In this document: positions 19,543-25,467 of the stretch, one piece after another
Numbering within the stretch: position 1 is the stretch's first letter
Layout of the letters: each line of letters opens with the position of its first letter
Origin: Acidimicrobiia bacterium
GTDB taxonomy: Bacteria; Actinomycetota; Acidimicrobiia; IMCC26256; PALSA-610
Reading direction: 5' to 3'
Length of the DNA stretch: 60,576 nucleotides
Assembly (NCBI GenBank): GCA_017882905.1
Contig: JADGOO010000077.1
Location: 1-60,576 of the forward strand
Position numbers and translations under genes: made by a program
The notes under the pieces: generated by a model
What the model was told of the DNA's origin: nothing
Databases searched by the model: none
Seen by the model: only the letters and a program-made list of their open reading frames with translations

Positions 19543-20313
19543 GTGCAGTCGTACGACTTCGTGCCGCCGCCGCTGCATGGCCGCGTGTTCGATGCGCCGC
19601 CCGGCAAGGTTCGCCTCGGCGATGCGACGCGCGGCGGCCGTCTTCGCCTCGATGCGTTGGTGCGCTACCTCCAGGACGCTGCCACCGATGACGCCGACCA
19701 GGCGCTCGGTCTGCCCGACGACGGCGCGCCCCGTGCGTGGATCGTCCGGCGCCTCGCGCTCGAGGTGGGCGAGCTGCCCCGATACCGTGAACCGTTCGTC
19801 ATTCGCACCTGGTGCAGCGGGATCGGGCCGCGCTGGGCCGAGCGGCGCAGCGATCTCCTCGTCGACGGCAAGGTCCGGGTGCAGGCCGCGGCCATCTGGG
19901 TGCACATCGACACGATCACGGGCCGGCCCGTGGCGCTCCCCGTCGGCTTCGAGGCCGTGTACGGCGAGGCGGCCGGCGACCGCGAGGCCTCGCAACGGCT
20001 GCGGCTCCCCGGGCCCTCGTCGTCGGCCACGGCAAGCGGCGCGGCGCCTGTGCCGTGGCCGGTGCGAGCCACCGACTTCGACGTGCTCGGTCACGTGAAC
20101 AACGCGGCCTACCTGCACGCGCTCGAAGAGGTGCTCGCGGCGCGCACGAGCCGCCACGCGCGGATCCATCAGGTGGAGGTTGAGTGGCGGGCGGGCATCG
20201 AGCTCGGCGACCGGCTCGAGCTGGCCGCGGCCGACACCGGCCCCGAGCTGCGGGTGTGGCTCCTCGCCGACAACGAGGTGCGAGCCGCGCTGTTCGCCGG
20301 GTTGCGCCACTAG
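19543..20313 (+). CDS. Double hot-dog acyl-ACP/acyl-CoA thioesterase
   Basis: A 256-residue tandem hot-dog protein of the FatA/FatB-like family. The first half has LDALVRYLQDAATDDADQAL and AWIVRRLALEVGELPRY. The second half has the catalytic-type segment DFDVLGHVNNAAYLHALEEVL, closer to the 4-hydroxybenzoyl-CoA thioesterase D-x-x-G-H-V-N-N pattern than to plant FatA, whose Asn in DxNxH is Leu here. It releases a free acid from an acyl carrier or CoA. The GTG start is fixed by the TACGGT box. Confidence 0.82.
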   Translation: MQSYDFVPPPLHGRVFDAPPGKVRLGDATRGGRLRLDALVRYLQDAATDDADQALGLPDDGAPRAWIVRRLALEVGELPRYREPFVIRTWCSGIGPRWAERRSDLLVDGKVRVQAAAIWVHIDTITGRPVALPVGFEAVYGEAAGDREASQRLRLPGPSSSATASGAAPVPWPVRATDFDVLGHVNNAAYLHALEEVLAARTSRHARIHQVEVEWRAGIELGDRLELAAADTGPELRVWLLADNEVRAALFAGLRH

Positions 20314-20324: not shown

Positions 20325-22316
20325 ATGGCGCCGGTGCAGCTCAGCGCAGCCGAGGCGAGAGTCCTCGGATGTCTCATCGAGAAGTCGCTCACCACGCCCG
20401 ACGCGTATCCGCTGTCGCTCAACTCGTTGCGCCTCGCATGCAACCAGACCACCAATCGCGATCCGGTCGTGAGCTACGACGAAGCGACGGTCGACGCGGC
20501 CCTCGACGGGCTGCGGGCCCACCAGCTCGCGGCGCGCGGCAAGACCTATGGCGAGCGCGCGATCAAGCACCGCCATCTGGTCGACGACGGTCTCAACGTC
20601 GATGCCGCGGAGCGCGCGCTGCTGTGTGTGCTGATGCTCCGCGGCCCACAGACCTCCGGTGAGCTCAAGACCCGTGCCGAGCGTCTCCACTCCTTCGCCG
20701 CGCTCGCCGACGTGGAGGACACGCTCGACCGTCTCGCAACCCGCGAGTTCGCGGTGCGTCTCGACCGCCGGCCCGGTCAGAAAGAGAGCCGTTGGCTCGA
20801 GCTCCTGTCGGTGCCCGGCGCCGGCAGCGAAGCCGCGCCGGCGCCCGACCGCGCGCCGGCGCCGGTCGACAGCGCACACGGTGAGCATGGCGAACATGGC
20901 GCTCCGGCCGGCCACGCCGGCCTGCTGGGCGCGGCGGCCGGACCGCAGACGCTCGAGATCACGAACCCGGCCACCGGCGCACTGCTCCGCGAAGTGGCCG
21001 TCGACGACGAGACCGAGATCGAAGCCAAGCTGCGCCGTGCGCGCGCCGCGCAGGCGCGCTGGGCGGCACTTCCCTACGAACGGCGCGCGGCCGCGCTGCT
21101 CGCGTGGCGTGACCAGCTCGGCGCCGACATCGAGGAGTGCGCGCGCATCACCGCGGAAGAGACCGGCAAGACGATCGGCGCGGCGCGCAACGAGATCCGA
21201 GCCGTACAGGACCGGATCACCTGGTTCGTGGCGCACGCTCCCGCGGTGCTCGCGCCGCGCACCGCCACGCAGTCCGACGCGATAGAAGAGCGCATCACCT
21301 ACGAGCCGCGTGGTGTGGTCGCGCACATCAGTGCGTGGAACTACCCCTACTTCGTCGGGCTCAACTCGATCGTGCCGGCATTGGCGTGCGGCAACGCGGT
21401 GCTCTACAAGCCGTCGGAGCTGGCCACGCTCACGGGGTTGCAGCTCGTGGATCTCGCGCATCGGTCGGGTGTGCCGGTCGATGTGCTGCAGACCATTGTC
21501 GGTTCAGGCCCCACAGGCGCCGCGCTCGTGTCGAGCGGCGTCGACCTCGTGTGCTTCACGGGGTCGGTGGCGACCGGCCGGCGGGTTGCCGTGAGCGCGG
21601 CGGAGCATCTCATCCCCGTGCAGCTCGAGCTCGGCGGCAAAGACGCCGCGTACGTGTGCGATGACGTCGATGTCGACGCGGCGGCCGAGGCGGTCGCGGA
21701 GGGCGCGTTCTACCACGGCGGTCAGTCGTGTTGTGCGGTGGAGCGCGTGTATGTACACCAGGCGATCTGGGAGCGGTTCGTGACCTCGTTCGTTGCCGCG
21801 GCGACGCACTGGGCGCCGGGTGATCCCCTCGACGCGGCGAGTGCGAATGGCGTGCTCGCGCGTGCGCAGCAGCCGGAGCTGTTGCAGGAGCAGGTCGACG
21901 ACGCCATCGCGAAGGGCGCGCGCGTGCTCCTCGGCGGCATGTGCGAGCCCGGCGCGGCGAGCTACCCGCCGACCGTGCTCGTCGACGTGGATCACAGCAT
22001 GACCGTGATGCGCGACGAGTCGTTCGGGCCGGTGATCGGTCTCATGCGGGTGCGGGACGACGACGAAGCGCTCGCCCTCGTCGACGACTCGAGCTACGGG
22101 CTCACCGCGGCGATCTTCAGCCGCGACCGCGAACGCGCCGAGGCGTTCCTCGCCCGGTGCGACACCGGAACCGTCTACTGGAACGCGTCGGATCGCACGA
22201 GCGTGACGGTGCCGTGGAGCGGTCGGCGCGCGTCCGGTCTCGGGGTCTCGATGGGCGAAGCCGGCATCGCCTCATTCGTGCGGCCCAAGGCCTGGCATCT
22301 GCGCCCCAGCTCCTGA
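20325..22316 (+). CDS. YceH (DUF480) - aldehyde dehydrogenase fusion
   Basis: One uninterrupted frame of 663 codons joins two families normally found apart. Residues 1-165 are a full YceH/DUF480 double winged helix (QLSAAEARVLGCLIEKSLTT, YPLSLNSLRLACNQTTNRDP, VLMLRGPQTSGELKTRAERL). A flexible linker (about 166-208, with HGEHGEHG) leads to a complete NAD(P)-dependent aldehyde dehydrogenase (209-663). That domain has Asn339 (SAWNYPY), the Rossmann loop FTGSVATGRR, Glu435 in LELGGK and catalytic Cys469 in GGQSCC. The closing PWSGRRASGLGVSMG and SFVRPKAW fit the semialdehyde-dehydrogenase type. No stop or start-like break lies at the junction. The ALDH substrate is unknown. The start is set by the leaderless promoter. 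Confidence 0.9.
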   Translation: MAPVQLSAAEARVLGCLIEKSLTTPDAYPLSLNSLRLACNQTTNRDPVVSYDEATVDAALDGLRAHQLAARGKTYGERAIKHRHLVDDGLNVDAAERALLCVLMLRGPQTSGELKTRAERLHSFAALADVEDTLDRLATREFAVRLDRRPGQKESRWLELLSVPGAGSEAAPAPDRAPAPVDSAHGEHGEHGAPAGHAGLLGAAAGPQTLEITNPATGALLREVAVDDETEIEAKLRRARAAQARWAALPYERRAAALLAWRDQLGADIEECARITAEETGKTIGAARNEIRAVQDRITWFVAHAPAVLAPRTATQSDAIEERITYEPRGVVAHISAWNYPYFVGLNSIVPALACGNAVLYKPSELATLTGLQLVDLAHRSGVPVDVLQTIVGSGPTGAALVSSGVDLVCFTGSVATGRRVAVSAAEHLIPVQLELGGKDAAYVCDDVDVDAAAEAVAEGAFYHGGQSCCAVERVYVHQAIWERFVTSFVAAATHWAPGDPLDAASANGVLARAQQPELLQEQVDDAIAKGARVLLGGMCEPGAASYPPTVLVDVDHSMTVMRDESFGPVIGLMRVRDDDEALALVDDSSYGLTAAIFSRDRERAEAFLARCDTGTVYWNASDRTSVTVPWSGRRASGLGVSMGEAGIASFVRPKAWHLRPSS

Positions 22317-23813
22317 TCACTTGCCCCAGCCGTCCCACAAGACTCGGGTGGCGCCGTAGGGGTCGTCGAGGAGCGTCCACTCGACGTCGATCCGCATCGT
22401 GGCCCGCCGTGTCGTGTCGTACGCGGGCCATGCAGGGATGTCGGCGTGCTGCGGGGAGCCGGTGCGGGCGAACGCGATCCACGCAGCGTGCATCCGGCTC
22501 GCGATCGCGGCCCGCTCGCCACCGTCGCCGGTGAACATGGCGACGCCGGGTTGGTCGAGGTTGTCGAACACGAACGGGATCTCGAGCGCGTGGCACGACT
22601 TGAGCACACCACCGAACGCGGGCGTGGGCCACGTGAAGAGGTACACGAACGCCGGTGCGTGCGCGAGCTGTGCCTCCACGAGGCGCAACCCGGGGATGCG
22701 GAACACCGCATCGCTCGACAGCGCCGTCCAGATCTCAGGGCCTGACGCGCCTGGCATCGCGTTGCGGTAGCCGTCGAACATGCCGTGCGCGGCGTCGCCG
22801 TACCAGTTGCTCGCGCGGGCGATGATGCCGGCGTCGTCGATCGTGGCGAGCGCAGGATCGATGATGTTGAACAAGGTCATCTCGTCGAGGTTCGTGCCAC
22901 ACAACACGGCGATGCCCGCCGCGCTGCCGTCACGGATCGCGTCCATCGGCGGCTGCGGCAGCACCACACCGTCGTGCACGGGCGCGAACGGCAGTGTGGT
23001 GCCCGATGTCTCGAAGCCGAGCACCGCGGCGGCGGCGACCACGTCGTCGGCCGACTTTGCGTACAGGGCTTCTAGGTCGTTGGGGGCGACGCCGAGCGTG
23101 TCGACGATGCGGGCGGCCTTGGCGGCGGCGTCGGCCGGCTCGAGCCCCCACATCGCGGCGCCGCTCTCGAGGATCGCCTTGTGGAACAAGCCGTGCGCGC
23201 CCGGCGTGCCGAGCAACGTGCCCACACTGCCGGCACCGGCCGACTCGCCGAAGATCGTGATGTCGTTCGGGTCGCCGCCGAACGCGGCGATGGAATCGCG
23301 CACCCATTCGAGCGCGGCGATCTGATCGAGCAGCCCGAGATTGCCGCTCGCCGCGAACTCCTCGCCGAACATCTCGCCGAGGTACAAGAATCCGAGCGGC
23401 CCGAGGCGGTAGTTGATGGTGACGAGCACGACGTCGCCGTGCGTGGCGAAGTTGGCGCCGTCGTACCAGGGCGTGGCGCCCGAACCGAACTGGAACGCGC
23501 CGCCGTGGATCCACACCATCACGGGCCGGCGCCCGTCGAGGCCGGGTGTCCACACGTTGAGCACGAGCGCGCCCTCGTCCTTGACCGTGGTGGCGCTGCC
23601 CATCATCTGCTCGAGGATCATGTCGGCCTGGGCGATGTAGGGCGCCGGGGTGGTGCAATCGCGGACGCCGTCCCAGGCGACCTCTCGCACGGGCGGGTGC
23701 CAGCGGCGACGGCCGACCGGCGGGGCGGCGAACGGGATGTTCCGGAAGATGGAGCAGCCGGGCGCTTCGAGGCCCTCGACCTTGCCGCTGCGGGTGTCCA
23801 CGATCGGTGCCAC
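22317..23813 (-). CDS. Type-B carboxylesterase
   Basis: A 498-residue alpha/beta-hydrolase of the carboxylesterase/cholinesterase family. The oxyanion loop is VMVWIHGGAFQFGSG, and the nucleophile Ser lies in ITIFGESAGAGSVG. GLLDQIAALEWVRDSIAAFGGDP is a family hallmark, and the catalytic His is probably that of LKSCHALEIPFVF. No signal peptide is seen from this start, so it may be cytoplasmic. The frame is open upstream to 23936, overlapping the divergent gene; I chose the GTG at 23813, whose GGGAGG site is rather close. It abuts the ALDH fusion tail to tail (TGATCA). Confidence 0.85.
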   Translation of the reverse strand: MAPIVDTRSGKVEGLEAPGCSIFRNIPFAAPPVGRRRWHPPVREVAWDGVRDCTTPAPYIAQADMILEQMMGSATTVKDEGALVLNVWTPGLDGRRPVMVWIHGGAFQFGSGATPWYDGANFATHGDVVLVTINYRLGPLGFLYLGEMFGEEFAASGNLGLLDQIAALEWVRDSIAAFGGDPNDITIFGESAGAGSVGTLLGTPGAHGLFHKAILESGAAMWGLEPADAAAKAARIVDTLGVAPNDLEALYAKSADDVVAAAAVLGFETSGTTLPFAPVHDGVVLPQPPMDAIRDGSAAGIAVLCGTNLDEMTLFNIIDPALATIDDAGIIARASNWYGDAAHGMFDGYRNAMPGASGPEIWTALSSDAVFRIPGLRLVEAQLAHAPAFVYLFTWPTPAFGGVLKSCHALEIPFVFDNLDQPGVAMFTGDGGERAAIASRMHAAWIAFARTGSPQHADIPAWPAYDTTRRATMRIDVEWTLLDDPYGATRVLWDGWGK

Positions 23814-23892
23814 TGGCCCTCCCGAGCTCGATGTACAGGCCTCGCGAGCGTATTCGTTAACTTCTGCGGCCCGACGTGCCGACACCTCCTCC

Positions 23893-25467
23893 ATGCGCCG
23901 ACGCCTCAGTGCCTTCCTCGCGCTCGCGGTGCTCACGACACTCGTCGGAGCCTCGAGCTCTGGATTCGGGGCTCAGGCCGGGAGCGACCCGGCCAACCAA
24001 CCACCGCCGGCCGCCGACCCGACCCACGTGCCGGGCTACGACCGCGACCCGCTGTCGCTGCTCGGCCCGAGCCGGCTGACCGCGGCGCAGATGGCTGCGT
24101 TCGTGAGCAACGGCCACACGCCGCACATCACGGTGTCGATCGAGCAGCTCGCGCAGATCTACGTGGAGGAGGGCAACGCCCTCGGCGTGCGGGCCGACAT
24201 GGCGTGGGCCCAGTCGATCGTGGAGACCGGCTCCTTCGGGTTCGCCGGCAGCATGGTGCACCCCTCCGACAACAACTTCTCGGGCATCGGTGCGTGCGAC
24301 TCCTGCTCGCACGGCAACCCGTACCCCACCGCGCGCCTCGGCGTTCGGGCCCAGATGCAGCTGCTCCGCGGCTACGCCGACCCGAACCCGCCGCACGGCT
24401 ACGTGATCTACCCGCCGAAGCCGTACCGCGGCAGCGCGCCCACGTGGTGGCAGATGGGCAACGGCCACTGGGCGACCTCGACGCGCTACGCGTCGTCGGT
24501 GATCTCGGTGTACGGCCGCATGCTCGACTTCGCGCACATCAACCTGTCGTACTCGCCGCCGCCCGGTGCCGCGCTCGCCGCGACGAGCATCGTCGACGGG
24601 CCGCCACCGGAGCCGCCGACACTGCCCGGACAGGGGCTGTACCTCGCCGACGTGCAAGGCCAGGTGTACGACGTTGGTGACGCGCGCTTCTGGGGTTCGG
24701 CCTACGACGCCGGCAGTGACGTGGTGCCGACGGCGATCGCGGCGACGCCCACTGCCGACGGCTACTGGCTGTTCCTGACGAACGGCAAGGTCCTCGAGTT
24801 CGGCGCCGCGAACAAGCTCGGAAGCCCGGCAACCCGCGTCGCCGCGGTGGCCGCCGCGCCGCACGGACAGGGCTACTGGACGGTCACGTCGTCGGGTGTC
24901 GTGCAATCGTTCGGTACCGCCGCGCACATCGCGCCAGCGCCCGGCTCGATCCCGGCTGGTGCCCGCATCGTCGGCATCGTGGCCACGCGCACCGGAAGCG
25001 GCTACTGGCTCGTTGATTCGCTCGGTCGGGTCGAGGCGTACGGCGACGCCCGCTTCTTCGGGTCGCTGTCCCACGGCACCGTGCACGACCCGGTGGTCGG
25101 GTTGGCGCCCACGCCCTGGGACGACGGCTACTGGTTGGCGACGTCGTCGTGTCGGGTCGTCGGCTTCGGTGCCGCGAAGGCGACGGGTGGCCTCGCCGAA
25201 GACCTCGCCGACAACACCGACTACGTGAAGTTCCCGACCGCGGCGCAGCGGCGCCTCGTGGGCATCTGGGAAGCCGCGCAGCACCTCGTGATCGCGATCC
25301 GGCCCACGCCCACAGGCGGTGGCTACTGGCTCGTGACTGCCGACGGCCTCGTGATCGGGCGTGGTGACGCCCCTGACTTCGGCCAGGTGCAGCAGACGGG
25401 TGTGCCGGTGCTGGCCGCGACGAGCCGCCTCGACACGGCGTCGCCGTTCCGCCCTCACCGGCCCTGA
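23893..25467 (+). CDS. Secreted glucosaminidase with six-fold propeller-like repeat domain
   Basis: A 524-residue exported protein. A signal peptide (about 1-27) is followed by a linker and a family-73-type glucosaminidase domain (about 82-215). Glu111 in AWAQSIVETGSF matches the catalytic Glu of the LESG motif, followed by NNFSGIGACDSC. After a Pro linker come six repeats of about 40-50 residues: YLADVQGQVYDVGDA, GYWLFLTNGKVLEFGAA, GYWTVTSSGVVQSFGTA, GYWLVDSLGRVEAYGDA, GYWLATSSCRVVGFGAA and GYWLVTADGLVIGRGDA. They read like beta-propeller blades. It probably cuts peptidoglycan glycan strands, with the repeats binding the wall or another protein. Confidence 0.85.
   Translation: MRRRLSAFLALAVLTTLVGASSSGFGAQAGSDPANQPPPAADPTHVPGYDRDPLSLLGPSRLTAAQMAAFVSNGHTPHITVSIEQLAQIYVEEGNALGVRADMAWAQSIVETGSFGFAGSMVHPSDNNFSGIGACDSCSHGNPYPTARLGVRAQMQLLRGYADPNPPHGYVIYPPKPYRGSAPTWWQMGNGHWATSTRYASSVISVYGRMLDFAHINLSYSPPPGAALAATSIVDGPPPEPPTLPGQGLYLADVQGQVYDVGDARFWGSAYDAGSDVVPTAIAATPTADGYWLFLTNGKVLEFGAANKLGSPATRVAAVAAAPHGQGYWTVTSSGVVQSFGTAAHIAPAPGSIPAGARIVGIVATRTGSGYWLVDSLGRVEAYGDARFFGSLSHGTVHDPVVGLAPTPWDDGYWLATSSCRVVGFGAAKATGGLAEDLADNTDYVKFPTAAQRRLVGIWEAAQHLVIAIRPTPTGGGYWLVTADGLVIGRGDAPDFGQVQQTGVPVLAATSRLDTASPFRPHRP

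Follow-up and report, generated by a model that had tools for sequence, protein, structure and literature searches.

Introduction

YceH/UPF0502 proteins (DUF480; PF04337) are represented by three crystal structures (E. coli YceH, PDB 5vyv; 5u8j; 3bz6) and have no known function. They are built from tandem winged helices and usually end in a C-terminal coiled coil, which is not a defining feature. The titles of entries 5vyv and 5u8j call YceH "involved in membrane biogenesis", and E. coli YceH is predicted to interact with proteins of the repression of transcription (PMC13246756); neither amounts to a demonstrated function. The open-licence papers that we searched hold almost nothing on YceH and describe neither a fusion of YceH to an aldehyde dehydrogenase (ALDH) nor any other DUF480 fusion, and most text matches to "DUF480" appear to be longer DUF numbers. 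Papers on B. subtilis "yceH" presumably concern a gene that shares the name but is not related.

Two described architectures resemble the protein analyzed here. PutA has an N-terminal DNA-binding-type domain joined to a dehydrogenase of the ALDH superfamily, and comprises a ribbon-helix-helix domain, an FAD proline dehydrogenase and a P5C-type ALDH. In MocR proteins, which bind DNA and PLP, a GntR winged helix is followed by an aminotransferase fold (PMC5320631). On the enzymatic side, the closest described system is the gamma-glutamyl-ethanolamine route, which proceeds by gamma-glutamylation, alcohol oxidation, aldehyde oxidation, and amide hydrolysis in Phaeobacter (PMC10132767) and Streptomyces (PMC6529630).

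Results and Discussion

A complete YceH domain is joined in frame to a complete ALDH

The fusion gene starts with ATG at position 20325 of the window (the whole 60,576-nt stretch of Acidimicrobiia DNA that was analyzed) and runs on the forward strand through 663 codons without an internal stop to a TGA at 22314–22316 (Table 1). It is the sole yceH in the source assembly, a draft of 259 contigs. Hmmscan found exactly two domains in the product. DUF480 matches residues 6–152 over 149 of 149 profile positions (E = 8.8e-56), scoring 188.6 bits against a curated cut-off of 25, while Aldedh (PF00171) matches residues 208–655 over profile positions 7–459 of 461 (E = 4e-127; 425 bits). The in-frame join proposed in the initial annotation is thus upheld as one uninterrupted ORF with both domains complete and, by these domain tests, the protein is a bona fide YceH combined with a bona fide ALDH. 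We rejected PutA as its identity, since only DUF480 and Aldedh were found and both the ribbon-helix-helix and the proline dehydrogenase domains are absent; the ALDH also scores best with subfamilies other than the P5C type of PutA. With MocR, the protein shares the succession of a winged-helix module and a C-terminal enzyme fold. The families are different ones, and the binding of DNA and PLP is a property of MocR.

The AF2 model consists of two confident domains with a disordered stretch between them at residues 165–206, where pLDDT falls below 50 at residues 165–193 and 195–206. The YceH half (mean pLDDT, 88) was matched by Foldseek to 5vyv, 5u8j, and 3bz6 with a TM score of about 0.9 and 42 to 48% identity, in agreement with the winged-helix fold assigned from the sequence. 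Moreover, it has kept all 24 near-invariant residues, defined as those with a conservation of 95% or more among coil-type YceH proteins. The window protein therefore shares with stand-alone YceH the full PF04337 domain, the tandem winged-helix fold, and the near-invariant residues, and differs from it in carrying a linker and an ALDH instead of the coiled coil; the linker has no heptad segment.

The active site of the ALDH half, previously reported as intact on the basis of Asn339, Glu435, and Cys469, proved to be so. These three residues, together with K362, E365, and E565, are invariant in seven fused and 16 stand-alone homologs. Furthermore, among the 128 ALDH columns that are invariant in the 16 stand-alone enzymes, 97 are kept in all seven fused ones, catalytic residues included. 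E365, located three codons past K362, is a Glu typical of NAD-preferring ALDHs.

Table 1. Features of the fusion locus, in window coordinates.
Feature	Position	Strand	Basis or remark
Acyl-ACP-thioesterase-like gene, upstream of the fusion ORF on the same strand	19561..20313 (3' end fixed)	+	Pfam PF01643/PF20791
yceH-aldh fusion ORF, 663 aa	20325..22316	+	Kept in 9 further species
YceH/DUF480 tandem winged-helix domain, aa 6–152	20340..20780	+	Pfam, AF2, Foldseek, 24/24 near-invariant residues
Ala/Pro/Gly-rich disordered linker, aa 165–206, ~42 residues	20817..20942	+	pLDDT, no heptad segment
Aldehyde dehydrogenase domain, aa 208–655	20946..22289	+	Pfam; PDB sequence matches over 208–654; AF2 high confidence
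N339, oxyanion-hole Asn of ALDH	21339..21341	+	Invariant
K362, NAD-binding Lys of ALDH	21408..21410	+	Invariant
E435, ALDH general base	21627..21629	+	Invariant
C469, ALDH catalytic nucleophile	21729..21731	+	Invariant
E565, NAD-ribose-binding Glu of ALDH	22017..22019	+	Invariant

The fusion is conserved across one family and has a single origin

The full fusion is present in 10 of the 14 species of an uncultured Acidimicrobiia family, distributed over six genera and including the window. The family has yceH in 11 of its 14 genomes, and the eleventh (G011) encodes a YceH with an ALDH remnant. All named records of the fused loci are Acidimicrobiia/Actinomycetota metagenome-assembled genomes, one of them on a 2.96-Mb contig. 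The possibility that an assembly or sequencing artefact fused two neighboring genes is practically negligible, as the same in-frame junction occurs in nine further genomes that were assembled separately, the one on the 2.96-Mb contig among them; an error at the junction is thus ruled out. We also looked for yceH and the ALDH gene as separate neighbors, which would provide Rosetta-stone proof. No yceH was found within 9 kb of the 74 stand-alone ALDH relatives, and no such ALDH lies next to yceH where the order has it as a separate gene.

Outside the family, yceH is stand-alone in all 13 other genomes of the order that have it. The nearest stand-alone kin of the fused ALDH, about 50% identical (about 44 to 54%), are all in other phyla, including Pseudomonadota, Myxococcota, Spirochaetota, Cyanobacteriota, and Bacteroidota, and no stand-alone ALDH elsewhere in the order comes close (about 40% identity at most). 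The fused proteins form one group in the YceH-domain tree (SH-aLRT, 96) as well as in the ALDH-domain tree (SH-aLRT, 90), and the inner order agrees between the two, with the window placed with G003 and G004, and G001 with G007 to G010. Because both trees give single groups of agreeing inner order and the nearest ALDH kin occur only in other phyla, we infer that the ALDH was gained horizontally, fused once in the ancestor of the family, and then passed on by vertical descent. The 36 to 42% identical ALDHs of G011, G012, and G013 (genus g8) were considered as the unfused ortholog and rejected, as they form a separate clade; the branch that separates them from the fused and the stand-alone operon ALDHs has a support of 100.

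The tail of G011 (L034:9766-11031) covers only positions 15–228 of the 461 of the ALDH Pfam profile, lacks the catalytic Asn, and stops at the Glu motif. Since G011 is nested inside the fused clade on the YceH tree, this remnant represents later decay. The base composition of its reading frame, compared over the three codon positions, is of the coding type, and thus the truncated tail may still be translated, making G011 a possible catalysis-free descendant of the YceH–ALDH fusion. The loss of the catalytic part with YceH intact indicates that, in this genome, YceH is independent of aldehyde oxidation.

The fused ALDH is probably active and related to operon-borne enzymes

The 74 loci of the stand-alone ALDH relatives, some of which are cut by contig ends, frequently contain a GS-like ligase (43 loci), an Fe-ADH (56 loci), and a peptidase C26 (40 loci), and also an amino-acid permease. 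In composition, this gene set matches the gamma-glutamyl-ethanolamine pathway. The fused ALDH thus resembles a gamma-glutamylacetaldehyde-type enzyme in its ~50% identity to operon-borne stand-alone kin of several phyla, while the likeness to the named pathways of Phaeobacter (MED193_10051) and S. coelicolor (SCO1612) is drawn via the gene set. The arrangement of permease, GS-like ligase, Fe-ADH, peptidase C26, and ALDH recurs as an operon over many phyla (L054-L127) and probably serves the catabolism of gamma-glutamylated amino alcohols.

In contrast to these operons, the fused gene has no GS-like ligase, alcohol dehydrogenase, or amidohydrolase adjacent to it in the family, and the Fe-ADH was not found in the family. 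The pairs of GS-like and C26 genes that the family does have lie at other loci, away from any ALDH of this kind. The window genome has two such pairs, G000:C259 (L136) and G000:C106 (L137), one of them near a FAD-oxidase-like gene. In view of the conserved columns, the catalytic residues with the NAD-type Glu, and the operon kinship, the fused ALDH probably oxidizes an amino- or gamma-glutamyl-aldehyde of a related kind. With the Fe-ADH missing and the partners located away from any such ALDH, this putative substrate may differ from that of the gamma-glutamyl-ethanolamine pathway.

YceH proteins have repeatedly exchanged their C-terminal tails

The tails of 99 distinct actinobacterial YceH proteins were classified as coil or globular by a crude heptad score. 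A coiled coil was predicted in 74 of them, all scoring at least 1.07, and a globular domain or remnant in the other 25. The globular tails comprised 10 ALDHs, one ALDH remnant, eight SnoaL_2/NTF2-like domains, two nitrobindin-type THAP4 domains, two MDMPI_N/DinB-like domains (one of which passes the Pfam threshold), one methyltransferase-like tail that is below the Pfam cut-off yet matches three methyltransferase models, and one unidentified. In the linkers of the fused YceH proteins that were examined, the heptad score detected no comparable coil. The YceH tree requires at least eight changes of tail type, and the near-invariant YceH residues are kept in nearly all fusions; two seeming losses in L026 are gap positions of a cut alignment sequence.

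Seven of the SnoaL_2/NTF2-like fusions (L172, L176, L178, L179, L194, L196, and L219) form a clade within one actinobacterial family, and the eighth (L167) stands separately. The genus of the latter, g34, also contains the methyltransferase-like tail (L159:5134-6402), which gives two tails in one genus. The nitrobindin-type tails, of the heme-binding THAP4 kind, are at L160:6518-7627 and L166:5047-6105, and the DinB/MDMPI_N-like tails, of the mycothiol-dependent isomerase type, are at L174:1581-2765 and L175:4825-6033. The YceH at L157:6221-7579 has a tail of ~290 residues with no Pfam match.

In Pseudomonadota, yceH is widespread, being present in 124 of 399 sampled genomes, and mostly encodes a protein of standard length. 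Nearly all of the 20 loci examined there are long open frames, and one is a true C-terminal fusion, to RidA (Ribonuc_L-PSP; L255:1212-2249). Long open frames were discarded as evidence of fusion and only C-terminal extensions were counted, because in high-GC genomes most such frames are upstream read-through without a domain. Two phage records, OQ572415.1 and OR851305.1, also contain yceH, probably as host DNA.

The recurrent exchange of tails is new and opens the function of YceH to experiment. Few clues to function can be read from sequence, and fusion partners are one of them. The initial annotation regarded the fusion as a first functional hint for YceH; a hint it is, but the membrane biogenesis title and the predicted repression links precede it. 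Several recurrent swaps, with varied domains, occur at one position with the near-invariant residues kept, which suggests a constant output in the winged-helix half and an input or oligomerizing part in the tail. ALDHs form dimers or tetramers, and dimers or trimers are common among NTF2-like, nitrobindin, DinB, and RidA domains. Our best reading of the sequences is that the tandem winged helices of YceH would form a conserved output module, followed by an exchangeable C-terminal module that oligomerizes and handles metabolites.

For the window protein, we weighed whether its two halves are coupled. They might instead be two useful proteins joined by chance, co-translated and uncoupled, with the ALDH acting as an ordinary metabolic enzyme. 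The linker would suit such a passenger, being long, disordered, and poorly conserved (mean identity of 23% across the ten fused proteins, compared to 66% for YceH and 65% for ALDH), as would the full conservation of each domain in itself. Likewise, yceH is not found beside the stand-alone ALDHs, occurs in only 15 of the 39 genomes that carry such a relative, and is never fused to an ALDH of this kind there. On the other hand, the fused junction has persisted over about 40% protein divergence in six genera, and the coil was lost exactly where a globular tail was gained, repeatedly and with different domains. We consider a chance union of this kind to be quite unlikely.

On balance, we favor a genuine, vertically inherited fusion, made once, in which an acquired ALDH of the gamma-glutamyl-aminoaldehyde type replaced the coil of YceH, leaving YceH as the output and the ALDH as a catalytic oligomerizer. 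According to this model, a horizontally acquired NAD-type ALDH of the ethanolamine-pathway kind would have taken the place of the coiled coil in the ancestor of the family. The tandem winged-helix half would have stayed a conserved output module that binds a partner, either DNA or protein. The ALDH half would have remained catalytic and, being obligately dimeric or tetrameric, would hold at least two YceH modules together on flexible linkers. In this manner, aldehyde oxidation or NAD occupancy could be brought to the site of YceH. As modeled, the disordered and fast-evolving linker argues against tight allostery between the two halves.

The YceH half resembles protein scaffolds as much as DNA binders

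The distant fold matches of YceH in Foldseek are RPC62 (a subunit of RNA polymerase III), ESCRT-II, and ScpB, and also MarR, PadR, and Fur. The better ones (RPC62, ESCRT-II, and ScpB) include both protein scaffolds and factors associated with DNA. Thus, the modeled tandem winged helices resemble protein–protein scaffolds and DNA binders equally, and YceH may bind either DNA or protein.

These matches bear on a regulator of the PutA kind, in which, by analogy, the YceH half would bind operator DNA and the ALDH half would sense aldehyde or NAD(H), so that the protein would act as a repressor in one state and as an enzyme in the other. Such a role would fit the winged-helix fold, which has MarR, PadR, and Fur regulators among its distant matches, and the predicted links of E. 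coli YceH to repression (PMC13246756). The swappable metabolite-binding tails are also reminiscent of MocR, PutA, and similar one-component regulators (PMC5320631, PMC5293562). It is less easily reconciled with the scaffolds among the better fold matches, with the retention of YceH in G011 after loss of the catalytic half of the ALDH, and with the position of the fusion gene, which in several species abuts or overlaps the upstream gene. We therefore regard a PutA-like switch as plausible, though rather unlikely. From the earlier regulator proposal, the fusion, the intact ALDH, and the winged-helix fold stand, and the variety of tails fits the one-component pattern. What does not extend to YceH at large is its description as "aldehyde- or NAD-responsive", because other lineages carry SnoaL, nitrobindin, DinB, RidA, or coil-only tails and G011 has kept YceH with a dead ALDH.

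A broader view, which we put forward tentatively, is that YceH may provide the shared output half in a modular family of regulators or adaptors that has not been described before, with an oligomeric, metabolite-handling domain as the exchangeable tail (ALDH, RidA, nitrobindin, SnoaL/NTF2-like, DinB/MDMPI, or methyltransferase). In the window protein, the ALDH would then report on a reactive aldehyde at the site of YceH or remove it.

In the window, 11 nt separate the end of the thioesterase-like gene from the fusion ORF, and the two are probably co-transcribed. In several other species of the family, the fusion starts 6 nt after a luciferase-like gene or overlaps it by 4 nt. As the fusion gene abuts (11 nt) or overlaps (4 nt) the upstream gene, the sequences point to no private operator or promoter region of its own at those loci. 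The locus is partly syntenic within the family, with a His-phosphatase, thioesterase, or luciferase-like gene upstream and a carboxylesterase and a gamma-carbonic-anhydrase-like gene on the downstream side. Elsewhere in the window, the ORF at 23650-25467 (+) has repeated "DGYWL...G" motifs in its C-terminal half, behind a glucosaminidase-like stretch, and looks like a secreted repeat protein.
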